Shown here: one piece after another, positions 24,628-43,035 of the stretch
Position numbering within the stretch: position 1 is the first letter of the stretch
How the letters are laid out: every line of letters begins with the position of its first letter
Source: Oceanisphaera avium
GTDB taxonomy: Bacteria > Pseudomonadota > Gammaproteobacteria > Enterobacterales > Aeromonadaceae
DNA: 64,000 nt
NCBI RefSeq assembly: GCF_002157875.1
Contig: NZ_CP021376.1
Location: 558,001-622,000 of the forward strand
Direction of reading: 5' to 3'
Made by a program: the position numbers and the translations under genes
Notes under the pieces: generated by a model
Databases searched by the model: none
Seen by the model: the letters and a program-made list of their open reading frames with translations, nothing else
What the model was told of the DNA's origin: nothing

Positions 24628-25614
24628 ATGTCTCATACTGAGCTTGGCGCTCACCCGTCGCTGTGCCACTTAACAAAACCTTGCGCTCAAATTGATCATG
24701 TATTGGCCTGTGTCAATGGTGATGCTTCTAGTGAGGCCGTGTTGCAGCATGCCTGCGCTTTAGCGACGGCGTTTTCTGCACGCCTTAGTCTGTTACAGGT
24801 ATTAGAAGTGAGTGTCTCGCAAGAGCCCATGGATCCCGTGGAATGGACGCTGCACCATTACGATAAATTAGAGTATTTAGACCGCTGCCTAAGTGATATT
24901 AAAGAAGTGAGTGCTGAGGCGGTGATAGTCGCGGGGCGCGCTGGCGAGAGCATTATTAGCTGGTCACAAGAGCACGGCGCCACGCTGATTGTACTGGGTC
25001 GAGGCGCTCAGCACGCGCGCCTTGGTGACACGGCGCGCCGGGTAGTAGAGGGCGCCCAGGCTTCGGTATTATTAGTGCCTTCTCAAGCGATGTTAAATCC
25101 TAGCCACGCTTATGAGCGATTACTTATCCCCCTTGATGGCTCTTGTCGCGCCGAATGTGCCTTGCCGCTGGGCCTGCGCTTGGCGGCTAAATCTCACTCT
25201 ACGTTACTGATTATTCATGCCGCTCCTCATAGTGACTTGATTGAGCGCGACCGCCTTAATGGTCACGCTAGCAGCTTACGCGAGCAGTTATATCGCCACA
25301 ATGAAGCAGCCGCGCAACGTTATTTAGATGAGCTGCGCAGTCGTTTGCCTGAGCAAATTCAAGTGAGCCTGCATATTTTGCCCAGTGCAGATGCGAGGTG
25401 CGCGCTATTAACGACCACTCATCAACACGCCCTCGATTTAGTCGTACTCTCGGCCACGGGTAAAAGTGGGCATGGCGATATGCTGCTTGGCAGTGTGGCA
25501 GATTATTTAATTCATCGCCTTGATGTCCCGGTATTACTGGTTCGCCAAGCGCAGCCTAAAATGGCAGCGCAAGATAATATTCAAACGCTAAGACGACCAG
25601 GGCAGGGCATGTAA
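24628..25614 (+). CDS. Tandem-domain universal stress protein
   Basis: A 328-residue protein with two UspA domains (about 20-155 and 165-312). The second domain has the ATP-binding motif GX2GX9GS in GKSGHGDMLLGSVADYL. The first has a weaker version, GRGAQHARLGDTARRV. Such proteins respond to stress and may bind ATP; their targets are mostly unknown. The start at 24628 is set by AAGGAGG seven to eight bases upstream, and an earlier in-frame start would add 27 residues without family support. The stop overlaps the next start as TAATG, so it is coupled to the cyclic glucan synthase gene and may adjust it under osmotic or energy stress (inference). Confidence 0.87.
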   Translation: MSHTELGAHPSLCHLTKPCAQIDHVLACVNGDASSEAVLQHACALATAFSARLSLLQVLEVSVSQEPMDPVEWTLHHYDKLEYLDRCLSDIKEVSAEAVIVAGRAGESIISWSQEHGATLIVLGRGAQHARLGDTARRVVEGAQASVLLVPSQAMLNPSHAYERLLIPLDGSCRAECALPLGLRLAAKSHSTLLIIHAAPHSDLIERDRLNGHASSLREQLYRHNEAAAQRYLDELRSRLPEQIQVSLHILPSADARCALLTTTHQHALDLVVLSATGKSGHGDMLLGSVADYLIHRLDVPVLLVRQAQPKMAAQDNIQTLRRPGQGM

Positions 25615-28600
25615 TGACACCAACACTTCATGATAAACAACCCACGCCCAACAACCCTCATCAGACACTTCCTCACGGAATTACCACCGGGCGCGCCAAC
25701 GCCGTTCCAGCATGGCAACACCTTGCTGATATGTTGCCTTGGCTTACCCACGTTCATGAGCACTGTCTTAAGCCTAGCGCGCCATTAGCAAAGGCTGCAC
25801 CTTGGCTATTAAATAATGAGTTTCATCTTCGCCGCGCGATACGCCAAGTGCGCCAAGATATGCCAATGGCGTTCTATCAGCGTCTGCCACGTCTTTACCA
25901 TCAACAATATCACGGCTTGCCCCGTATCTATTGGCTAGCCCGACGATTGTTCACCAATAGCCAAACCCACCTTAGCCAGTCCTATATTGTAGATTTTGTT
26001 AACGATTATCAGGGCGAATCACCGCTTAACTTGGCGGAGCTGTGGGCCTTAGGCGCCATGTTGCGCTTAGTCTGCTTAGAAGTGGTGGTGGCGGCGACGG
26101 CTCAGTTATTACCTGATCTCACCCCGCCTTTTAAGATTAGCCATGTTGAGCTGCCAGACGAGATTGAAGCTAGCCTGGCCTTATCGCAGGCGATCATGGT
26201 GCTCATTTCGCTGTCGTCAATTTCTTGGCAGCAATGCGTGGAGCAAACCAGTGAAGTAGAGCGCATTTTAAGACAAGATCCCGCCAAGGTGTATGGCGCC
26301 ATGGACTTTGCTACCCGAGACCGCTATCGCCATGCAGTGGAAAATATTGCCGAGCTGGCAACGCAGCCGGAGTGGCAAGTGGCTAATAAGGCCCTTAGCT
26401 TAGCAAAGGCGCGCTGGCCGGCGCGGCGAATTGGTCATGTGGGTTATTGGTTAATTGATGATGGCCGCGCGCGCTTAGAGCGCGAGACGGGCGTGGTGTT
26501 AAGCCGCTATCAGCGCCTAAAGCGCAGCCTAAAAGCGCGCCCGGGTGTGGCATATAGCCTAATGTTGGCAAGTATCACCTTGCTTGCTTGGCTGATTCCG
26601 GCATTAATTTTATCTCATCTCGGTGCACAAGGGCGTACTTGGTGGTTAGGCCTTGGTTTATTTTTAGCGCCCGCCTTAATTATTGGGGTCACGCTGAGTC
26701 ATTGGCTGCTAAGTCGCCTTACTAACGCCTGCATCTTGCCCAAAATGAGTGTGGAGCAGGGCTTAAAAGAAGGCTGGGATACGTTGGTCGTGATGCCGAT
26801 TATTTTACGCCATTGTAATGAGGTGCGCTCCTTTATTGAGCGCTTAGAAATGCATTGGTTATCTAATCCCGATCCTAAAGTAAAGCTTGCGCTATTAAGT
26901 GATGTTGCTGATGCCAAGCGCCAGCAATTACCAGAAGATGAAGCCATAGAGCGGGCTTTGGTAGAGGGAGTACGCGCGCTGAATGAACGCTATGGCGTAG
27001 CGCAACCTTTTATGTTGTTGCATAGGCGCCGCTGTTGGAATGCCAGTGAAGGGCGCTGGATGGGATGGGAGCGAAAACGAGGCAAGTTGGAGCAGCTAGT
27101 CGCCTTAATAATGGGACAAGATGTCAGTGCCTTTGCCATCCAAGAAGGCCAAATTAATGCCTTAGCTACCATGCGCTTTGTGGTGACCTTGGATGCCGAT
27201 ACTTTTAGCCAGTCTAATAATATTAATCGCTTGATCAGCATTTTAGCGCATCCGCTTAATCGCGTAGAGTTTGATGTTAGCACGGGCAAGGCGCTGCGCG
27301 GCTACACCTTTATTCAACCGCGTATTGAAATTTCGCCCAAAGCACGAGTGCACTCTTTATTTAGTCAATGGTACTCCGGTGATACTGCCCTTGATATCTA
27401 TAGCCAAGCGGTATCGGATGTATATCAAGATGTATTTGGTGAAGGTATTTTTACCGGTAAAGGCGCTTTTGATGTGGCGGCATTTCATCGCTGCTTAGAC
27501 GGGCGCGTTCCTGAGAATGCGATTTTAAGTCATGACTTATTTGAAGGCCTGCATGGGCGCACCGGTTTAGCCAGTGATGTGGTTTTTTATGAAGAGTTTC
27601 CCGATACCTATTTAGCGTATGCGCGTCGTGCAGCGCGCTGGATCCGAGGTGACTGGCAATTAACACCTTGGTTAGGGCGCCAGGTCCCCAGTCGCCAGCA
27701 ATGGGTAAGCAGTCGTTTTAGCTGGCTGGGCCGTTGGCAAATGCTGGATAACCTAAGACGCAGTTTAGTCGCGCCGCTATTGGTATTGTTAGCGCTGTGT
27801 GGTTGGCTAGTGTTACCGGGTCATGCCCTATTGTGGACGGGGCTTGCGATAAGTGCACCGGCTATTTATTTAGTTATCGATTTTGCTAGTCGCCTTTCCC
27901 GTGTGCGAAAACTAGGCTTTAGCCAGCGCATGTTGCATCCCTTGTCTGAGCATGGGGCGCGTTGGTTATTATCTATTATCTTTTTGGCCCATGAAGCCAG
28001 TGTTGCCCTTCAAGCCATGACTTGCGCCCTTTGGCGAGTGCATGTGTCGCGTCGGGGTTTATTAGAGTGGGTGTCAGCGGCACATAGCCGAGATGAAGTA
28101 GCGCACACCTTATTAGGCACTTGGCGCGAAATGAAATGGGCGCCACTTGCTGCACTGGCAATGACCTTATTATTGGTCGTGGTGAATGCCAGTGCCCTAT
28201 GGGGCGCGGCGCCGTTATTGTGCTTGTGGTTTATCTCGCCGCACATAGCTTGGCTGATCAGTCGTGAAAAAACTGCGCCAAAAGCACAGTTAGCTCACCA
28301 AGATAGGCGTTATCTGCGCTTAATTGCGCGGCGCACTTGGTTGTATTTTGAAACCTTTGCCGGTCCTGATAATAACTGGTTACCTGCCGATAACTACCAA
28401 GCGCCCCCTTATGAAGATACCGCCCATCGCTCCTCGCCAACTAATGTGGGCATGTTATTTTTAGCCGCCCTTAATGCCTGGGATTTGGGGCATATTGGCC
28501 GACGAGATTTATTGGCGCGTACCACCTCTGCCTTGGACACGTTAGATAAATTAGAAAGCCATGACGGTCATCTTCTTAACTGGTTTGATACTCGCACTTT

Positions 28601-31600
28601 AGCCTCACTGGCACCGCGTTATGTCTCAACTGTGGATAGCGGTAACTTGGCGGTGAGCTTGTTAGTGCTCAGCGCCGGTTGTAAAGAAGCAGCGACCGAT
28701 GCCTTATTGCCGCCCGCGCGCTGGCAAGGGCTAGAAGATTGTTTACAGCTATTATTAAGTGAGCTAATTGCACTTCCTAGCGCCATAAGAGCACCGATCG
28801 ATGAGCAACTCAGGGCGTTTTTGCATCAAGTCAGAGAGAATGGCGCTTATGCCTCACTTTGGTATAGCGCGCTAATTAAACTTAATGCAGGGGACTGGCA
28901 GCACATAAAACAAAGCCTTGCCGAGGGAATTGCGAATTCAGACCGTCCTGGCCATGAAATTCATGTATGGCTAAAGCGCTGTGATCACCATCTAATGACC
29001 ATGATCCGCGATCTTGAAGCTCTGGCTCCTTGGTACCCACTCCTGAGTGCACCCTCTGCTTTGTGCGCTGAGTTTGCTGAACTGATCAATGCTTTGCCCG
29101 CACCCACTATGCCTCTCGTGGAGATGAACGCGCAGTTAGTTAAGACACATCAGCTATTAGAAGGGATACAGAGTTCGCGCACCGAGTCGGCGACTCATGA
29201 ACACACACTGTGGTTAGACAACATGGCCGCTGCGCTGCAACAAACCAAGTTGGCCGGTGAGCAAATCAGCGCTGATTTTTTACATTGTGCTGCGCGCGCC
29301 GAGGCGCGGGCATTTGCCATGGCTTTTGCGCCTTTATATGACCAAGAAACCCATACCTTTGTGATTGGTCATAACCTCGACTCGGGACAGCGAGATGTTC
29401 ACCACTACGATCTACTGGCCAGTGAGGCGCGCTTAGCCAGCTATTTTGCGATTGCTAAACGTGATGTGCCGCTAAAACATTGGTTTTATTTAGGACGGCC
29501 ATTAACCCGTGATGGCCGGCAGCTTAGCTTGCTATCGTGGAATGGCTCCATGTTTGAGTATTTAATGCCCACCTTATTGTTGCCAAGCGATGGCCATCGT
29601 TTATTAGGTCAAAGTGAGCGCAGTGCCGTTAACTTACAACGCCAATATGGCGCCAAACTTGGACTGCCGTGGGGGATTTCTGAGTCGGCTTTTGCCACCC
29701 GCAATGACGCCCAAGATTATCAATACCAAGCCTTTGGCGTGCCGGCGTTAGGATTAAAATATGGCCTTGAGCAAGACTATGTAGTGGCTCCCTATGCCAG
29801 TGGCTTAGCGCTTAGTGTGGCGCCCCAAGCTGCCTGTGCGAATTTGCGCCACCTCGAGCAATTAGGGTTGCGAGGCCGCTATGGCTTTTTTGAAGCGGCG
29901 GACTTTACGCCCCAGCGCCAATCGGCCAATAACCGCCTAACCATAGTGCGCTCTTATATGGCCCACCACCAAGGGATGATGAGTGCGGCCATTGGTAATG
30001 CACTAAATAACAATATTATGGTGCGCCGCTTAAGCCAACACCCCAAAATGCGTGCCACTGAGCTGTTACTACAAGAGCGCATTCCTTGGGAGCGTTATTA
30101 TGAACAAGCGCAGTTTGGTGAACAACCCCGTCAAGCTAAGCTCGCCACCCCGACGTTATCTCCTATTAGCGTGCCCGAGTTAGGGACTTGGTCAAGCCCC
30201 AAAGAGGCGGGCCCCCAAGTGCAGTTGCTGGGTAACGGCCGTTTAGCCGCTTGGCTTACCGCCAGTGGTGAAAGTGCGCTAACGTGGCGCGATATTATGC
30301 TCACTCACTGGTCAGCAGATGCCAGTATTGCGGGAGGGGGGGCCAGAATGTATTTGAGTGTAGGAGAAGAGGTGTGGTCTGTGGGCCAGCAACACCCCGG
30401 CACGCTACACTTTAGCGGTCATAATCTTGAATTTAATCAGCACTATCAAGGCCTATTAAGCCACCTTGAAATAATGCTAGCCGCTGAAGATGATGCCGAG
30501 TTTCGCCGCTTAAGCTTGTTTAATGACACCACTCAGCCTATCACAGTACAAGTGACCAGTTATGCACAGCCGGTCTTGGCTTCACAAAGTGAATATGAGC
30601 GCCATCCCGCATTTAGTAAGCTGTTTATTCATAGCGAGCATGATAGCGCGCAAAATTTGCTGCTCTTTCAACGTCGAGCTCGGCGGGTAAACGAGCACAC
30701 GCCGGTATTAATCCATCGCTTAATTACCGATGATCCCGCCATTAAAGCCATCGGTTATACTAGCTGTCGGCGAGAGTTTTTTGGTCGACAGGGTGATATT
30801 TTAGCGCCACTAGGTGCGCGCCAACTGTTACAAGGTGCCACTGGCTGGACGCTAGATGCAGCTATGGTCTTACAAGCCAAAGTCGTGTTGGCCCCTCATG
30901 CCCAAGTGGCGCTGGACTTTATAACGGCCGTGGCTGCAACCAAAGAGAAAGCGCTGAATATTAGCAAACGCTACCCCCATAACGCAGCCATTGACTGGGC
31001 ACGACAAGACGCCATCCAAGCCACGGCCGTTAGCGCCCATGCGCTGGGATTAGACACCGCTACCTTAGCCGACGCCCAAAGGCTGTGCGCTAACTTAGTG
31101 TTAACCACTCGGGCGCACAATTTACTTACTCCCATGGCTCATAACTTACCCAGCCAGCCCCAATTATGGAGCTTAGGTATTTCGGGGGACTTACCGATTG
31201 TGTTGTTGTGCATTAAAGATGCATTGCACATGCCTTTGCTTGAACCCCTAATAAGAGTGCATAAATGGTGGCAAAGGTGTGGTTTAAAAGTGGATTTAGT
31301 GTGTATGCAAGCGCACAGCGCTAGCTATCAAAATCCGGTGAGAGAGCGCTTATTTAGCGTACTACGAGAGTTAAACGCGAATAACAAAAGTGCTGATGCC
31401 GCGCTGCACTTAGGCGCAAAGGGCGGCATTCATTTACTGGATGCCCCCAGCTTAAGCGCTGAGTTGCGCGACTCTCTCGCAGCCACTGCACGAATAACGC
31501 TGGATGCCAGTGTAGACAGTTTGGCGCATGCTATGCGCTCCTCTTCGCTACCCTTAAGCCCAATGCCGCTATTTCAGCCTTTAATTGTTGAACCTATGGC

Positions 31601-34105
31601 AGAGGCTGGCTACCAAGTCGCGCCTTTAGTGCGCCCTAATGATCTGCTCTTTGATAATGGCGTGGGCGGCTTTGTCAAAGACAGCGGTGATTATTTAATC
31701 CATTTAGATGCTGGCCAAACCACGCCAACTGCGTGGAGTAATATTCTAGCAAATGAGACTTTTGGCAGCTTAGTGACGGAGGCCGGCCTTGGCTTTACTT
31801 GGGGCTTAAACAGTGGTGAGCATAGGCTTACTCCGTGGTCGAATGACCCTTTATTAGACGCGCAAGCAGAAGCGCTTTATTTGCGTGATGAACAAACTGG
31901 CGCTATTTGGACCCCTACACCCTTGCCCGCAGGTGGCGCTAAGAGCTGTCAGGTCCTTCATCAAACGGGAGCGACCACCTGGCGCCGCCATGAGGAGGGC
32001 TTAGAACAAACGCTCAGTGTGTGTGTGGCGCCCCAAGCCTCGGTGAAGTTGATGCTATTAACGCTCACTAATCCGAGTCCTTACCCGCGGCGTATTACGG
32101 CCACCTATTATGCCCACTGGCAATTAGGCGCCATTGCACGCGTGGCAACGCCGCATGTGGTGGCGGGCTATAGCGATGAGCATGGCATTTTATTGGCTCG
32201 TAATGATTGGGATCCAGAATTTGCAGGGCGCACCGCTTTTTTAGCCTCGAGTCGCGTCGCCCATAGCGTCACCTGCGACCGAGCCAGCTTTATAGGAGCG
32301 AATAATGATGCCGCTCGCCCTGCAGGATTAATAGCTTGGAGCCTAGATGGCAATATTAATGAAGTCGTTGATAGTTGTGCCGCTTTTCAGGTGCATATCA
32401 CTGTGCCAGCGCACGCCATTGCAGAAACCGTGTTTGTATTAGGGGAAGGAGAGGACTCTGCCCATGCCCAAACTCTCGCCAGTACTTGGCGCCAAGTAGA
32501 GCGCGTTAAACAAGCACTATTAGAAAATAAAGCACTGTGGCAAGAGCGCTTAAGTCAGGTGCAAGTGAGTACGCCAAACGCAGCATTTAATATTATGGTG
32601 AATCGCTGGCTAAATTATCAAAGTTTAGCTTCACGAATTTTTGCTCGCGCCGGCTTTCAACAAGCCAGTGGTGCGGTGGGCTTTCGTGATCAACTACAAG
32701 ACATGATGTCGTTACTATTAAGTGACCCCACCCGGGTACGCAGCCACCTCTTAGCCTGCGCCGCGCATCAATTTGAACAAGGCGATGTTCTACACTGGTG
32801 GCATCCACCCAGTGGGCGCGGCGTAAAAACACGCTGCTCTGATGATATGTTGTGGCTGGTTTATGGCTGTGCGCGCTATGTGATGGCGACTCAGGATATA
32901 GGCTTGTTAACAGAGTCGGTGGCGTTTTTATCGGCGCCGCCGTTACATAAGGATGAGCGTGATCGTTATGGCGTGTTTAGTGAAGGCGAAAGTGGCACTG
33001 TATTTGAGCATTGTCGGCGTGCGCTAGAGTATGGCATGACTCAAGGCGCTCATGGCCTGCCATTAATGGCGGGAGGTGATTGGAACGATGGCATGGATCG
33101 CGTGGGTGATAAAGGCAAAGGAGAAAGTGTGTGGTTGGCGTGGTTTATTGCCGAGTGCGCCGATGGATTTGCAACTTTGTGTGAACTGCTAGTAGAACAC
33201 AATGAGGGGGCTGCGGATTATGGGACGCTGAGCCATTATTGGCGGGAGCGCGCGCATCAAGTGCGGCTAAACATAGAAGCTACCGCTTGGGATGGAGCTT
33301 GGTATGTGCGCGCCTTTGATGATGAGGGGGTTGCGTGGGGCTCAAAGCAGGCAACAGAGTGTCAAATTGACAGTATTTCACAATCTTGGTCGGCGTTGGC
33401 CGCCGGCTTATCCCCCAGCGCACGTTAGCGGCACTGAATTCTGCTAGCGAACACTTAATGAACAATGAGGCAGCGATTGTGAAGTTATTAGCGCCCCCCT
33501 TTGCCGAGACGCCGCGGGATCCTGGCTACATTCGAGCTTATCCGCCGGGAGTGCGAGAAAATGGCAGTCAGTATAGTCATGCTGCTGCTTGGTTGGGGTT
33601 GGCTAACGCTCGGGTAGGAAAGGGCGATATGGCTTATGAAATTTTTACTAGACTCAACCCCATTTATCGCAGTGATAGCCTTATTAAAGCCCAGCACTAT
33701 CGTGGTGAGCCTTATGTCGTAGCCGCAGATATTTGCGGCCAAGGGCCACACAGTGGCCAAGCCGGTTGGACTTGGTATACGGGCGCCGCCAGTTGGAGCT
33801 GGCAATTAGCGGTGGAGGGCATATTAGGCATAAGCTTACATTTAGGCGAAGTGCGTATTGCCCCTTGTTTGCCGCGCGATTGGGGCAGTGCCACAGTGCG
33901 CTTGCATAGAGAGACCGCAAGCTTAGTTATTCATATTGAAGACCCGCACCACTTAGGTAGCGGTTGGGTCGCACTGACCGAAGCGGGGCAAGCCTTACAA
34001 GGTAACACCCTTGCTTTCCCAAAAGCAGGAGCAGAGCGTACCGTGCATGCCCGACTGTGGCCGAGTGAGCAAGCGGCGGCTCAGGCGCTTAGCGCTAATT
34101 CATAA
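25614..34105 (+). pseudogene. Cyclic beta-glucan synthase (NdvB/Cgs type), frameshifted as sequenced
   Basis: A giant inner-membrane enzyme of about 2830 residues that makes cyclic beta-1,2-glucan in the periplasm. The order seen is an N-terminal region, membrane helices (about 315-375), a GT84 domain with the DAD motif near 525 and RWIRGDWQ near 675, more helices (about 720-790, 840-880), a glucoamylase-like domain (SPTNVGML, STVDSGNLA), a carbohydrate-binding region with HQGMM, and a GH94 phosphorylase-type C-terminus with GDWNDGMDRVG near 2488. The frame stops at 33428. The C-terminus (RTLAALNSA, DPGYIRAYPPGVRENG, QYSHAAAW, GWTWYTGAASW) continues in the next frame. The switch lies in the C5 run at 33412-33416, and one added C joins the parts cleanly. 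A strong terminator follows. Confidence 0.9.
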
Positions 34106-36934: not shown

Positions 36935-37627
36935 ATGAGCGGGCAAGGTGATGAGTTTATTGCGCCTCGGTGTGAGGGTATTGTCCGTATCTTGTATCAA
37001 GATGCGCATTTATTAGTAATTGATAAACCCAGTGGTTTATTAAGCTTGTCTGGTAAAAACCTCCAAAACTGGGACTCTGTTCACTATCGCTTAGTCCACG
37101 GCCAAGCGGGCGCGACGCCCGCTTTTAAAGACGCTAAATTGCCCCATCGCTTAGACTTTGGTACTTCTGGCATCATGCTGGTTGCGCTTAATGCGCATGC
37201 CGCCAAACAGCTCAATAAGCAGTTTCAAGCAGGCAGCATTACTAAGCGCTATTTGGCCATACTAAATGGCCATGTGAGCCAAGAGAAGGGGGACATTAAT
37301 GCGCCCATTGCCAAAGATCCCTTATTATTTCCGCGGGTGAAAATTAGCCAGCAAGAGGGCAAGACCTCTATCAGTGACTATCAGGTATTAGCGCGCTTAA
37401 ATAAGCCTAAGCGCACACTGGTGCAATACAGTCCGCGCACTGGACGCACTCATCAATTACGCATTCATAGCCTGCACTTTGGCCACCCTATTTTGGGCTG
37501 TGATCTCTATGGCAATGCTCAAAGCCTGCAACTCGCTCCACGCTTAATGCTGCATGCCAGCGATATTTACTTTACCCACCCCGAAACCGGCCAAGCATTC
37601 CACGGCCACAGCCCAAGTCCGTTTTAA
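36935..37627 (+). CDS. RluA-family pseudouridine synthase
   Basis: A 230-residue RNA pseudouridine synthase of the RluA/RsuA superfamily, which isomerises uridine in rRNA or tRNA. The catalytic Asp lies in HRLDFGTSG at about residue 74. VLVIDKPSGLLS and RTGRTHQLRIHSLHFGHPILG are the other family motifs. There is no S4 domain. Size and motifs are closest to RluA (23S U746/tRNA U32), but other single-domain relatives are possible, so I do not assign the exact target. The stop lies only a few bases from the decayed integron integrase on the other strand, so this gene marks the core-genome border of the accessory segment. Confidence 0.85.
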   Translation: MSGQGDEFIAPRCEGIVRILYQDAHLLVIDKPSGLLSLSGKNLQNWDSVHYRLVHGQAGATPAFKDAKLPHRLDFGTSGIMLVALNAHAAKQLNKQFQAGSITKRYLAILNGHVSQEKGDINAPIAKDPLLFPRVKISQQEGKTSISDYQVLARLNKPKRTLVQYSPRTGRTHQLRIHSLHFGHPILGCDLYGNAQSLQLAPRLMLHASDIYFTHPETGQAFHGHSPSPF

Positions 37628-37639
37628 GCTTAACCCCTC

Positions 37640-37976
37640 GGATATATCACCTAACGATCGATCTAGAACGCGAGCATATAAAAATACCATGGCATTCAGT
37701 GCTAGATTTTGTGTGGCCGCAGCTACTTGACGCTCCGTGGCTAGCCAACTGAGAAGTGCATTCACACAAGCTCTAGCGAATGTCGAAGACTGTGAAAGCG
37801 GATGAAATAACGGATCCAATACCAATAGTTTTTTCGGTTCGAATACGGTAATGATTGAGGCGGGTTACTGAACAGAGTTGTTCATGCAAACGTAACTGGT
37901 GAGCTTGGCTATTTATAAAAACTCTATTGCTGTTTTTATAAATAATAGCAATAAGAGGGGCTAACATTGAAGTCAA
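37640..37976 (-). pseudogene. intI: Degenerate integron integrase (IntI) N-terminal remnant
   Basis: On the minus strand three adjacent frames together give an IntI-type tyrosine recombinase N-terminus. One frame has TRLNHYRIRTEKT, the next YWYWIRYFIRFHSLRHSLEL, and the third VNALLSWLATERQVAAATQN followed by LALNAMVFLYARVL. This order matches the SAM-like core-binding domain of integron integrases (RH/NHYS-RTEK-Y-WI-FI-FH-RHP ... VEAFL-LA-E-VAA-TQN-ALNA-FLY). At least two frameshifts are needed and the catalytic domain with the Arg/His/Tyr residues is absent, so it cannot be active. It points away from the attC-bearing segment to its right, the normal integron geometry. The exact ends are approximate. 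Confidence 0.8.
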
Positions 37977-38259
37977 GCTAATACAGATTGCTGAGCGTGA
38001 GAAACTAGTTAAAACATTGTTTTTACAGTGCTTTTATAAAATAGCATTATCTTGTTAATGCGTAGTTATACCGACGCGTGCGTTATATATTAACGCCGCA
38101 CGCGGTTTAATTACTGTTATATTTTTGTTAGAAATCACAACTCAGAAATATCTTAATCCCTGTTTTAAAGTGTGAATTCTTTCCCACTTTATACGCTGTA
38201 CAGTTAAGGACGTTTAGATTGTAATGAGTACAACCATTGTATAATGAGGTGGTAACGGT
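37977..38259. other. AT-rich region between IntI relic and first cassette ORF
   Basis: This stretch lies where attI and the cassette promoter would be in an intact integron. It has several core-site-like GTTA sequences (38056, 38064-38071, 38082) and the palindrome described separately, but no certain attI. No ORF is supported. AT content is much higher than in flanking core genes. Confidence 0.5.
38075..38104. repeat. Palindrome with back-to-back attC-core-like sequences
   Basis: CGCGTGCG (38075-38082) pairs perfectly with CGCACGCG (38097-38104). The interior reads TTATATATTAACGC, so a GCGTTA-like right core is followed immediately by a TAACGCC-like left core. Two attC ends abutting, or a collapsed empty cassette, would look like this. 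A chance hairpin or a protein-binding site are alternatives. Confidence 0.45.
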
Positions 38260-38901
38260 ATGAATGTGTTGGAAAACCTTAGAGTACTCAAAAAAGACAT
38301 GGAAAGTAACGGATGGGTGATCGATGCGTTTCCGTTCACATTTAAAGCGGTAGACTATATTTTACTAGTTAAGCTGTACGATGAAAATGATGCTAAAAGA
38401 CCAGAATATGCACTTTTGGAGCTAGAGTTTTTGAAAAAAAATGACATTTCAGATAACTTGGTTGCTCCAGCGAATACCATGAGACTTTTGATTACGCCTC
38501 AAGAGCTACGAACGTATTTTGGTATTGAATGGTCAGAAAATTTGCGTGATATCTTAAGTCAATTTTATGAATACCTCTCGGGTTTTATCCCTTTATCTGT
38601 TGGTTTGCACAGAACTAAAGAAATTGATGTTGCTATGGTTGAATCGTTGTCAAAGAGTGATAGTGAGGATCCAAGAAAATTATACTGTTTTTCAGCTAAG
38701 AGAAATCCGAACGATGGGAATAGAAGTCCATATAATGATAATAAAACGCGAATATTAAGACCAATTTTATATTCGAAACTATCAGGTGATCCTCAAGTAA
38801 GTTTTAATTACTCATTAGAAGAGAGTAAGAAAAAGTCTGACTCAGAAATAATCAGTAACTTTAGTTCTAGCCACAAATTAACCGCTAGTAGAAAAATATA
38901 A
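38260..38901 (+). CDS. Integron-cassette hypothetical protein
   Basis: A 213-residue soluble protein that I do not recognise with confidence (it may belong to one of the uncharacterised DUF families seen in genomic islands). It starts MNVLENLRVLKKDMESNGWV, has no signal peptide or membrane segment, is mixed alpha/beta in its first 130 residues (VDYILLVKLY, ALLELEFL, ITPQELRTYFG), and has a Ser/Lys/Asn-rich, probably disordered C-terminus. Codon use is AT-rich, unlike the flanking genes. Its stop codon lies inside the left end of a VCR-like attC site, in the orientation expected for a gene cassette. RBS GAGGTGG precedes the ATG. Confidence 0.75.
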   Translation: MNVLENLRVLKKDMESNGWVIDAFPFTFKAVDYILLVKLYDENDAKRPEYALLELEFLKKNDISDNLVAPANTMRLLITPQELRTYFGIEWSENLRDILSQFYEYLSGFIPLSVGLHRTKEIDVAMVESLSKSDSEDPRKLYCFSAKRNPNDGNRSPYNDNKTRILRPILYSKLSGDPQVSFNYSLEESKKKSDSEIISNFSSSHKLTASRKI

Positions 38902-39022
38902 CAAAGCATTTAAGAGTGATTCTCAACGCTTGGCATTTTTACTGTCATCGTTGGGTCTTGTGTTTATGGGGATATGGTTAAGGTTCGTGGTAGCGTTGCT
39001 CACACCTTAATGCGGCGTTATG
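38898..39022 (+). mobile_element. VCR-like attC recombination site
   Basis: About 125 bases with imperfect dyad symmetry. The left end ATAAC-AAA-GCATTTAAG (from 38898) pairs with the right end CTTAATGC-GGC-GTTAT (to about 39021), with one unpaired T that would become an extrahelical base. Inside, CAACGCT near 38923-38930 is repeated as its complement AGCGTTG near 38993-38999, corresponding to the inner L boxes. Length, outer cores (TAAC ... GTTAT) and inner boxes match Vibrio-type repeats. The site directly follows the 213-residue ORF. Confidence 0.88.
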
Positions 39023-39030
39023 ACTATGCT

Positions 39031-39321
39031 TCAGTAACAGGCTTTGATGTCTCTGTAAAAGTTTTCATGAGTACCAAGTACCATCAGTTCGAGTGTCATA
39101 ACGCTATCTTGGTAGCTATAGCCAAGTAGAGTAAGCTGTTTAATCATCTTGAACTTGTGAACACGCAAAAATAAGAGATCTCCTTTTTTTAGTTCTCCTA
39201 TAAAAGGATCTTCCATGATGGCCTTGATAGCATTATCCAGATCATTTTTCTGATTTGCGTGCAGTTTCTTTACCGTTTTTTTGAAACTTGGTGTTTGTAA
39301 AACGCGGTTTACTTTAGCCAA
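39031..39321 (-). CDS. RelE/ParE-superfamily toxin
   Basis: A 96-residue basic protein with the RelE/ParE toxin layout: N-terminal TPSFKKTVKKLHANQKNDLD, a central FIGELKKGDLLFLRVHKFK, and a C-terminal strand LTLLGYSYQDSVMTLELMVL followed by HENFYRDIK. Relatives cleave mRNA on the ribosome or poison gyrase. The antitoxin gene lies immediately upstream and overlaps it by eight bases; the best start is TTG at 39321, inside the end of the antitoxin gene, whereas an upstream ATG would run through antitoxin codons. It stops nine bases from the attC site, so it fills one end of a cassette in reverse orientation. Confidence 0.85.
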   Translation of the reverse strand: MAKVNRVLQTPSFKKTVKKLHANQKNDLDNAIKAIMEDPFIGELKKGDLLFLRVHKFKMIKQLTLLGYSYQDSVMTLELMVLGTHENFYRDIKACY

Positions 39322-39535
39322 AAGTATATTCCTCAAGCTTACCTGCTTCTTTTTCTGCTTGGGCAATAATGGCTTGTTTAACGAACTCGTAGGGAAGATC
39401 AGGGTTGTCTTCCATCATTTCTCCAATTTTTGCCCAGTGCTCAATTTGTTTAGGCGTTGTTCTGCTATAAGCCTTAGCCATGATGGAGGCTTTTTCTACG
39501 AGTGCTTGGTCGAGTCTGATGCTTGCTGTAGACAT
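39314..39535 (-). CDS. ParD-like antitoxin
   Basis: A 73-residue protein starting MSTASIRLDQALVEKASIMA, then RTTPKQIEHWAKIGEMM, matching the ParD-like antitoxin family (ribbon-helix-helix N-terminus). The C-terminal acidic helix (QAEKEAGKLEEYTFG) would wrap the toxin. It is the first gene of a two-gene operon with the downstream RelE/ParE-type toxin. A near-perfect operator palindrome lies at 39563-39579, 28 bases before the start, suggesting autorepression as in other type II systems. RBS AAGGAGAA is well placed. Confidence 0.87.
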   Translation of the reverse strand: MSTASIRLDQALVEKASIMAKAYSRTTPKQIEHWAKIGEMMEDNPDLPYEFVKQAIIAQAEKEAGKLEEYTFG

Positions 39536-39562
39536 GATTTTCTCCTTGTGTGGAATTATGAT

Positions 39563-39579
39563 TGTAGCGTAACGCTACA
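39563..39579 (-). promoter_or_regulatory. Operator palindrome of the toxin-antitoxin operon
   Basis: TGTAGCGT and ACGCTACA form perfect eight-base arms around a single central A. It sits 28 bases upstream of the antitoxin ATG, where the RHH antitoxin would be expected to bind and repress its own promoter. Confidence 0.7.
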
Positions 39580-39595
39580 TTTGTGGCAATCTTTC

Positions 39596-39706
39596 ACAAT
39601 AAGGTGCTGTACGCGACACTTACGCTAGTCCGTTTTTGTGTTTCGCTGCGCTCAATTTTACACATAAATGTCTTTCGCTCAGTTCGCGTGAGCTTAGCAT
39701 TATGAG
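39596..39706 (+). mobile_element. Degenerate attC-like site after the toxin-antitoxin pair
   Basis: About 110 bases running from ATAAGG near 39599 to CATTATGAG near 39706. The two ends are partly complementary (ACGCGACACT on the left; the complement of the right end reads ACGCGAACTG), with TCGCTGCGCTCAATTTTACAC in the centre. The right end CATTATGAG parallels GTTATGAC of the clear attC. Pairing is much weaker than in that site, so this is a tentative call. Confidence 0.4.
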
Positions 39707-39996
39707 TATCTAGTACTAATGCTCACGCGTCGGCCATGTTTATTGCTGAATTTATCTAAGATAGTGATTCATCTTTATTCGTAAAGGATTACCGTTTTAG
39801 GCTACTTATCCTCTGTTCTACAATTCTCTGTTTCCTATCAATACCGACGTCGCTGGGCTTTAGGCGCTTAACCCGCTATCATATAAAACCTTACATTTTA
39901 TAATGTTATTGTGCTGACTTGCTAATTAAGGGGTAGCTAATTAGCGACGACTACTCATTCTGCCTACTCAGTTTTATTAGGGATATCCACCACATC
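39707..39996. other. Gap at the right edge of the accessory segment
   Basis: No gene is seen. An imperfect inverted repeat pairs CGCGTGAGC and GCATTA (39685-39703) with TAATGC and TCACGCG (39717-39729) and overlaps the end of the attC-like site. The remainder is AT-rich and should carry the carbonic anhydrase promoter. Confidence 0.4.
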
Positions 39997-40833
39997 ATGA
40001 AGATGAACCGTATTTTTTTACTGGTTTCCAGTGCCATGTTATTGAGCGGCGTGTCTGCTTTTGCATCTGCCACCGAGCACCCTGTTGCTAAGCAGCGTCA
40101 AGCATTAGCCAGTAATACTCACGATCAGGGCTTTGGCCCACAATCTCCACGAGATATTAGCCAACTGGCAGGAGAGAATAAGATTGCCTTTAATCCCGCG
40201 CCGCCGGCCAGCGCCATGAATTTGTGCAATATTCATTTTCATCGCAACGCTGAGCATGCGGGCGGCGAATTTAGCAGCCCAGCCGAAGATGATAATCAAG
40301 CCGGTTTTCGCTACTCAGGCACGCTCACTCGTGCCGAGTTAGCACCCGTTAAGCAAGCTATTTGCCCCAGCGAGCAAAGTAGCTTAGCCACAGGTGATAC
40401 CATAGAGTTACATTATGTTTACTCTAGCGCTAAGGTCAGCCCTGGCCCCACGCTGGGTGCGTGTTTTAACGATGCCATTAAAAATCCACAGCTGCGTGCC
40501 ATCGCCCAAGTCTATGTGCTCGTTAACGACGAAAAGGCCTTGGATTTTAACCAGCTAACAGCCGTGAGTGAACAAGATGGCTTGTATCAAGCCATCAATA
40601 TTCCTACTAACACCGGTGATGCCATTGAATATGCAGGCTCTACTACGGGCCCAACCTACAATGAAATTGGCTCGCCATTTCAAGTGACCTGGAGCGTGAA
40701 GCCCAAGGTTGCTAAAGTAAATATTGCCAGTGTAGGGCAGTGGTGTGAGAGTAATATCTTTGAAGAAGACCATGCCCATGGTGTGCGAAACTTAGTAATT
40801 AATCCTGATTTATTAGCGCCCATTACTCAGTAG
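39997..40833 (+). CDS. Delta-class-like carbonic anhydrase, exported
   Basis: A 278-residue protein with a signal peptide (about 1-26, ending SAFASA). The mature part contains LCNIHFHRNAEHAGGEF, which matches the zinc-binding region of the delta-class/diatom TWCA1-like carbonic anhydrases; His 80, 82 and 87 and Cys 77 lie there. Further family segments are QAICPSEQSSL, LHYVYSSA and VTWSVKPKVAKVNI. It should hydrate CO2 to bicarbonate in the periplasm, useful for pH and inorganic carbon supply. The identification is from remembered similarity and I cannot confirm all metal ligands. It is monocistronic with a strong terminator. Confidence 0.78.
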   Translation: MKMNRIFLLVSSAMLLSGVSAFASATEHPVAKQRQALASNTHDQGFGPQSPRDISQLAGENKIAFNPAPPASAMNLCNIHFHRNAEHAGGEFSSPAEDDNQAGFRYSGTLTRAELAPVKQAICPSEQSSLATGDTIELHYVYSSAKVSPGPTLGACFNDAIKNPQLRAIAQVYVLVNDEKALDFNQLTAVSEQDGLYQAINIPTNTGDAIEYAGSTTGPTYNEIGSPFQVTWSVKPKVAKVNIASVGQWCESNIFEEDHAHGVRNLVINPDLLAPITQ

Positions 40834-41688: not shown

Positions 41689-42770
41689 TTATTCAGGGAT
41701 GGGCACTTCTTTATGGCTGACATCCTCTGCGGCTAAGGTTTCCTTGGCTTGTTGCTTATCCTCTTGGTCGGCGTTTAAGTGCGCTTCACCCGTCGTGTGA
41801 TGAGGATGCAAACTCAATACGGTGAGTAAGGAAAAATGATCCGAGCCTTTTAAAGACAAGCGCTTAATGCTGATAACTTTAAAGTGACGGCTATGGAATA
41901 AATGATCTAGGGGCCAGCGGATAAGCGGGTATTTAGCGTTAAAGGTATTAAACATTCCTCGGCCAATTCGCGGGTCTAATAAACCACTAATTTTTCTAAA
42001 TAAACGAGTAGTGCGTGACCAAGCCACATCGTTAAGATCGCCCGCCACTAATACGGGTAATTTCGCGTCTTTTACGCTTTTTGCTACCATCACCAACTCG
42101 GCATCGCGCGGGCTGACTCATCGTTTTCACTGGGGCTAGGTGGAGCTGGATGTAAAAAGTGCGCTTGTACCTTAATGTTATGCGCCACTTCTATTAAGCA
42201 GTGCATTGAGGGCACGTCTTTTTCCACTAAATAGCGAATTTGACCATCATGCAGCGGCAAGCGTGAATAAAGATGCATGCCATACAGATTTTCTAGCGGG
42301 CATTGTAAACAATAGGGGTAGTTTGCTGCTAAGGGCGCCAGTTGCTGTTGCCACCATAAGTTAGACTCTAAGGTAATGAGGATATCGGGTTGATGCTCCT
42401 TTACTAACTCAAGCAAGCTCTTGGCATGGCGATTGGTGGCTAAGACATTGGCATTGAGCAACTTAAGGCAGTGCTTGGGCGAAGTTTGAGTTTCAGTCTC
42501 CGCTTCTTTAGGATACAGCCGAGTGTAGGGCGCAATCCACCAAAGTTGATAGACAAAATATGCGGTATTTAGGGACAAGATCAACCAAGCGCTGAGTTGG
42601 CTTAAGTCTAAGCGCCACAGTCCTAAAATAATTACTAGACCAATGACCACACTAAATTGCAAGCGTGGGAAGTCGAGGTCACGTACCCACCACTGAGCAC
42701 TTTTTGATAAAGGCACTAACGTAACCACGCTGGTGAGTAAGGTGGCGAGCCAAAATAGGGTTAATTCCAT
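41689..42770 (-). pseudogene. Membrane-anchored endonuclease/exonuclease/phosphatase family protein, frameshifted as sequenced
   Basis: The product would be about 360 residues: three N-terminal membrane helices (about 1-75), then an EEP domain with NANVLATNRHA, Glu in [27 protein letters not shown] and the terminal SDHFSLL. EEP enzymes cleave phosphodiesters or phosphomonoesters; the substrate is unknown. The first frame ends at 42090 after SENDESARA. The second frame resumes with [13 protein letters not shown], the usual continuation. The break lies at about 42104-42112. One added C in the minus-strand CCC, giving SAPRDAEL, or loss of a GC pair, giving SARDAEL, repairs it. The start at 42770 is favoured over one four codons upstream on spacing. 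Confidence 0.82.
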
Positions 42771-43035
42771 AAACACATCCATCCGTTGCAGTGCTAAGGC
42801 TCACGCTTTAAGGCGCGTACTTAAAAATATTCATACTGGGCGACTTGGTAGAGAGCAAACATGATATGCAAGAAGCGTTTAGCTTGTCTGCGTATCTCGC
42901 GAGCGGCTAGCATAGCGTATTCTGTGCTTAAGGCTGCTAAAAAAATCTTTGGCGCCTAAGCGCTAATCCATAATAAGACGCCACAGCCATTGGCCGCTGT
43001 GGAAAATGGGCATTAATTATTATTAAGGGAAAGCG

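Follow-up and report, generated by a model that had tools for sequence, protein, structure and literature searches.

Pseudo-integron decay is well described. According to Nemergut et al. 2008 (PMC2426708), almost a third of integron integrase (intI) genes are pseudogenes, at least a fifth of carriers have several, and genomes in which a functional intI is accompanied by a pseudogene from a foreign clade form a named class. Clusters of attC sites without an integrase, termed CALIN in the account of IntegronFinder 2.0 (PMC9024848), are proposed there to be degraded integrons, and LexA control of intI, lost together with integrase inactivation, is described in PMC3108266. The gap between an rluA-type pseudouridine synthase gene and a delta carbonic anhydrase gene of Oceanisphaera avium holds an integron remnant consisting of an intI pseudogene, an attI site and two gene cassettes, and this remnant fits the published course of intI decay. 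Like the pseudo-integrons described in PMC2426708, it has a broken intI of a foreign clade while another intI of the genome appears functional, although here most of intI is gone and attI and cassettes have been retained. Like a CALIN as defined in PMC9024848, it carries attC sites without a working integrase, but the intI remnant and attI persist and the second attC is decayed.

With the Pseudomonas-type chromosomal integrons of Halopseudomonas and Stutzerimonas (intact example: genome G791, loci L146/L156), the locus shares the N-terminal third of intI and the attI site, whereas its own intI is cut short and broken in frame, and its attC1 belongs to the Vibrio type. With Vibrio integron cassettes (VCR-type attC), it shares attC1, the DUF6037 protein and a toxin-antitoxin (TA) cassette, yet there are only two cassettes, they sit on a Pseudomonas-type attI outside Vibrio, and the end of cassette 2 belongs to another attC subtype. 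On the observed anatomy, homologies and empty site in relatives, it is very probable that the gap carries a dead Pseudomonas-type platform with two Vibrio-type cassettes. The original prediction, of an integron relic with a decayed integrase, is upheld by the intI similarity, the attC and the canonical layout; the Pseudomonas-type platform, the Vibrio-like cassette 1 and a separate, apparently intact integron go beyond it.

The window analyzed is the whole 64-kb stretch at positions 558001-622000 of a single 2.90 Mb contig, and coordinates below are window positions unless stated otherwise. The following features were placed in it:

36935..37627, plus strand: rluA-type pseudouridine synthase gene, left flank, outside the integron (PF00849, E 6.7e-29)
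37640..37916, minus strand: intI pseudogene, Pseudomonas-type, residues ~1-96 in three frames (tblastn with relatives, TIGR02249)
37930..37945, plus strand: possible LexA box in the intI promoter, half of it decayed (CTG half retained, CAG half gone)
37972..38119, plus strand: attI, expected crossover between 38116 and 38117 (alignment with the L146 attI region)
38117..39017, plus strand: gene cassette 1 (left edge from the attI alignment, right edge from attC1)
38260..38901, plus strand: DUF6037 gene in cassette 1 (PF19503, E 3.5e-75)
38897..39022, minus strand: attC1, VCR type, bottom strand (covariance models R1 and R2)
39018..39699, no strand assigned: gene cassette 2, inverted toxin-antitoxin pair (Vibrio sp. 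HDW18 array; the right edge rests on attC2)
39031..39366, minus strand: ParE-like toxin ORF (PF15781, E 2.1e-36; true start possibly further inside)
39314..39535, minus strand: ParD-like antitoxin gene (PF11903, E 2.7e-17)
39595..39704, minus strand: attC2, probable, decayed, of another attC subtype (R1, 29.5 bits; homology to five attC sites)
39997..40833, plus strand: delta carbonic anhydrase gene, right flank, outside the integron (PF10563, E 2e-72)

The Pfam matches agree with the original naming of the flanks (RluA-type synthase and carbonic anhydrase) and of the toxin-antitoxin pair. The layout is canonical, with intI pointing away from the cassettes and attI in between, and the insert is AT-rich, its GC content being ~32-44% against ~45-53% in the surroundings. 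Beyond the attC sites of the remnant, no attC match in the 64-kb window scored above 10.3 bits (R1) or 11.7 bits (R2); thus, the long array of a large sedentary chromosomal integron is lacking. A once larger array had been envisaged, and we found no evidence of more than two cassettes.

The integrase remnant was delimited by tblastn with integron integrases, which places residues 1-30 at 37916-37827, residues 29-50 at 37833-37768 and residues ~55-96 at 37765-37640, all on the minus strand. An IntI-like N-terminus in three minus-strand frames, as predicted, is therefore present, but it does not reach 37976, since the similarity ends at 37916 and only the ORF continues. These pieces cover just residues ~1-96 of 321 in three frames with two frame breaks, and the C-terminal ~225 residues are missing on the rluA side, where the break adjoins the rluA stop codon. 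A complete integron combines a full-length integrase (with catalytic domain and IntI-specific patch), an attI adjoining intI and an attC oriented correctly to attI; here the later integrase domains are gone, attI adjoins intI, and two models give attC1 the correct orientation. In a pseudo-integron, intI is broken by a frameshift, a stop or a major deletion, and the two frame breaks plus the loss of ~225 residues put the locus in this class. The two frame breaks could stem from indel sequencing errors, because two other genes in the window are also split, but the loss of ~225 residues could not. One of these, a GH94 (cyclic glucan synthase-like) gene at 25614-34105, lies in two overlapping frames with a frame break or sequencing error at ~33.4 kb; the other, an endonuclease/exonuclease/phosphatase-family gene at 41689-42782, also lies in two overlapping frames and is split at 42090-42096.

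A single-frame piece of the remnant (37643-37825) by itself matches TIGR02249 (E 7.7e-10), and a longer ORF containing it matches PF13495 (E 2.4e-9). The TIGR02249 match alone is unspecific, because weak matches to that model occur in all 14 of 14 control genomes; the assignment becomes specific through close relatives among the integron integrases. With the 61-aa single-frame piece as query (E≤0.001), 87 proteins matched, the best at 73% identity over 55 aa (90% of the piece), and the 10 of these 87 for which an organism is named all come from Pseudomonas, Halopseudomonas or Stutzerimonas. Judged by these nearest relatives of the 61-aa piece, the remnant is that of a Pseudomonas-type integron integrase. 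The integrase of the other integron in this genome has only 40% (62 aa) and 46% (26 aa) identity to two of the pieces, and in the order, the piece found matches in 51 of 295 genomes (E≤1e-6), this genome among them; identity in the nearest of the others was 51-62%. Nine loci were compared for integrase type, eight of them from the genus, seven of those with an integrase match. The Pseudomonas type was the best match in none of these seven and in the ninth locus, a Pseudomonas-type example. Of 45 residues at positions with 97% or more conservation in 70 relatives, the remnant retains 41, and the relatives themselves keep a mean of 99% (lowest 80%); therefore, the gene looks recently dead.

The Pseudomonas-type integrase P0116 was matched in 3 of 369 genomes of the class (E≤1e-120), the best being L146. 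Local alignment of 37972-38119 with the attI region of L146 scored 73, compared with a maximum of 29 in 500 shuffles. The alignment stops in GTTA, where cassettes join, and cassette 1 therefore begins at 38117. Upstream of intI, at 37930-37945, the CTG half of a possible LexA box is retained and the CAG half lost, while the full CTG-N10-CAG, the motif as in PMC3108266, stands at the corresponding place in L148, L146 and the other integron of this genome. A complete integron also has a cassette promoter Pc; the search for one returned 8 promoter-like sites against a shuffle mean of 6.8, no excess over chance.

Cassette 1 encodes a DUF6037 protein of 213 residues with only 4 differences (98% identity) from the Vibrio metschnikovii protein P0001. 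Relatives of this family range from Vibrio to Bacillus and Chryseobacterium; the fold of the protein encoded at 38260-38901 is predicted confidently, and the searches run against solved structures gave no match. A VCR-like attC at ~38898-39022 had been proposed, and attC1 was found there with both models (R1, 125.1 bits, E 1e-30; R2, 123.2 bits, E 5e-26), and attC sites from Vibrio records and genomes are up to 91-92% identical to it; its folding departs from chance by a z of only -1.32. With 37600-39990 as query (E≤0.01), there were matches in 242 plasmid records, of which 128 were Vibrio; with 37980-39900 (E≤1e-10), 98 of the 394 genomes searched in the order gave a match, this genome being one of them. 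Among the matches listed, both queries hit the attC or the TA pair. The DNA of a donor cassette was searched for and not found, and we therefore infer that the cassette moved as a unit.

Cassette 2 is an inverted ParD/ParE-like pair. In Vibrio sp. HDW18, a stretch 72.6% identical over 654 columns covers an attC and the TA pair, which is flanked by attC sites on both sides in that array. Among 17 TA-pair loci inspected by eye (two being duplicates), an attC adjoined the pair in some and was absent in others, so the pair is not exclusively a cassette. The weaker attC-like end that had been noted here was reported by R1 at 39595-39704 (29.5 bits, E 1.8e-5), a partly circular score, as R1 contains four of the five relatives of attC2. 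R2, which contains none of these five, did not report it at E≤10. Matches to 39590-39712 were found in 6 of 394 genomes, own included (E≤0.001), and the five other places are attC-shaped and all detected by R2. The prediction thus stands on R1 and on five attC homologues but not on R2, on folding alone (z -0.24, not distinct from chance) or on end complementarity (p 0.26, with 30 of 67 control pairs scoring equally well). From this homology, attC2 is a probable decayed attC of another subtype. A CALIN has at least two attC sites and no intact integrase nearby; here attC1 is certain, and attC2 was reported by R1 but not by R2.

The flanks had been taken for core genes, which does not hold at the cut-offs used: rluA (67% identical to that of Oceanisphaera pacifica) occurs in 10 of 23 same-genus genomes (E≤1e-50) and carbonic anhydrase in 7 of 23 (E≤1e-10), own included in both counts. 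Both genes are present in 4 of 23 genomes, own included, and are adjacent in all four. The gap measures 2,372 bp here and 266, 354 and 445 bp in the other three, where blastn returned gene ends and short chance matches only, and a scan with R2 (E≤0.1) gave no attC. The insert is absent from these three genomes, which have an empty site; the comparison rests on these three, the other 19 same-genus genomes being uninformative on the site. The original prediction was to be abandoned if neither IntI similarity nor an attC covariance-model match existed, or if the segment were conserved in all relatives; both signals are present, and these three genomes with adjacent flanks lack the segment.

At ~0.46 Mb from the remnant, the same chromosome carries an unrelated integron that appears intact and has attC sites of another, shorter type. 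Its integrase (L008:6634-7626) scores 419.9 bits, and its array of short attC repeats extends over L008/L009, at ~1.04-1.06 Mb of the chromosome. A VCR-type attC (61.4 bits with R1) also occurs in a second orphan locus, at 1.19 Mb, which resembles part of the resident array with 90% identity over 677 bp. At this locus (L012:780-1620), a RelB/RelE-like pair, identified by eye, lies between an own-type attC and the VCR-type attC. Searched in its own genome (E≤10), attC1 found, besides itself, only this orphan locus and two chance stretches of 14 bases. At the right attC edge, 15 nt are identical in both orphan loci, through chance or common history.

The Pseudomonas-type nearest relatives of intI, the attI match, the Vibrio-like DUF6037 protein and the empty sites lead to the reading that an integron was laterally acquired with Vibrio-type cassettes and died here, apparently recently. 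Its IntI would have inserted circular cassettes at attI through recombination between attI and attC, and would have died after, or about the time of, the arrival of cassette 1, an order that is reconstructed rather than dated directly. The gene has lost its C-terminal two thirds on the rluA side, and the rest is broken in frame in two places. The cassettes would now be fixed unless an integrase acts in trans, and the TA pair may help to retain the segment. The idea that the cassettes landed at a chance secondary site beside an unrelated recombinase fragment, without any integron platform, draws on the TA pair also standing without an adjoining attC in several inspected loci, but the intI remnant, attI and cassette junction follow one another in the canonical order and orientation, and an attI alignment far above shuffles practically refutes it; we give it almost no credence. 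Hardly more credible is decay of an ancient integron of the genome's own, with a once larger sedentary array, of which the remnant would be a duplicate or the split-off end of the resident one. Broken integrases lie within contigs of other same-genus genomes (G001, G004, G016 and G021), so such decay is frequent in the genus and affects its own integrase types, and the genome does have orphan cassettes that are related to its resident array. However, the intI pieces are closer to Pseudomonas-type integrases than to the resident one, attI matches the Pseudomonas type, and the insert is missing in relatives.

A more serious competitor, though still an unlikely one, is that attI outlived its integrase and that the genome's own intact-looking integrase inserted the Vibrio-type cassettes later, in trans, with the dead platform as a dock. 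The unrelated, apparently intact integron on the same chromosome, the nearly unchanged state of cassette 1 beside a broken intI, and the 677-bp resemblance of the 1.19 Mb locus to the resident array would all suit such late insertion. Against it, intI also looks recently dead, hence no delay is needed, and the attC sites of the resident array are of another type. We likewise doubt, to the same degree, that the dead integron is a still-working dock, a spare landing site on which the unrelated resident integrase acts in trans through attI and attC1; if it were, the shared 15 nt and the VCR-type attC at both orphan loci would be traces of the same traffic.

On the preferred reading of a laterally acquired integron that died in place, the locus is a compact case of integron turnover, combining a foreign platform and a Vibrio-like cassette that has hardly changed with a dead integrase, an unrelated integron on the same chromosome that appears intact, and relatives in which the site is empty. 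It can be used to ask whether attI sites and cassettes outlast the integrase beside them and whether another integrase can serve them in trans. Decay has run in parallel in a same-genus genome, at locus L143 (G016:C3, ~104-106.5 kb), where a broken intI of another type has a VCR-type attC, 87% identical, nearby.
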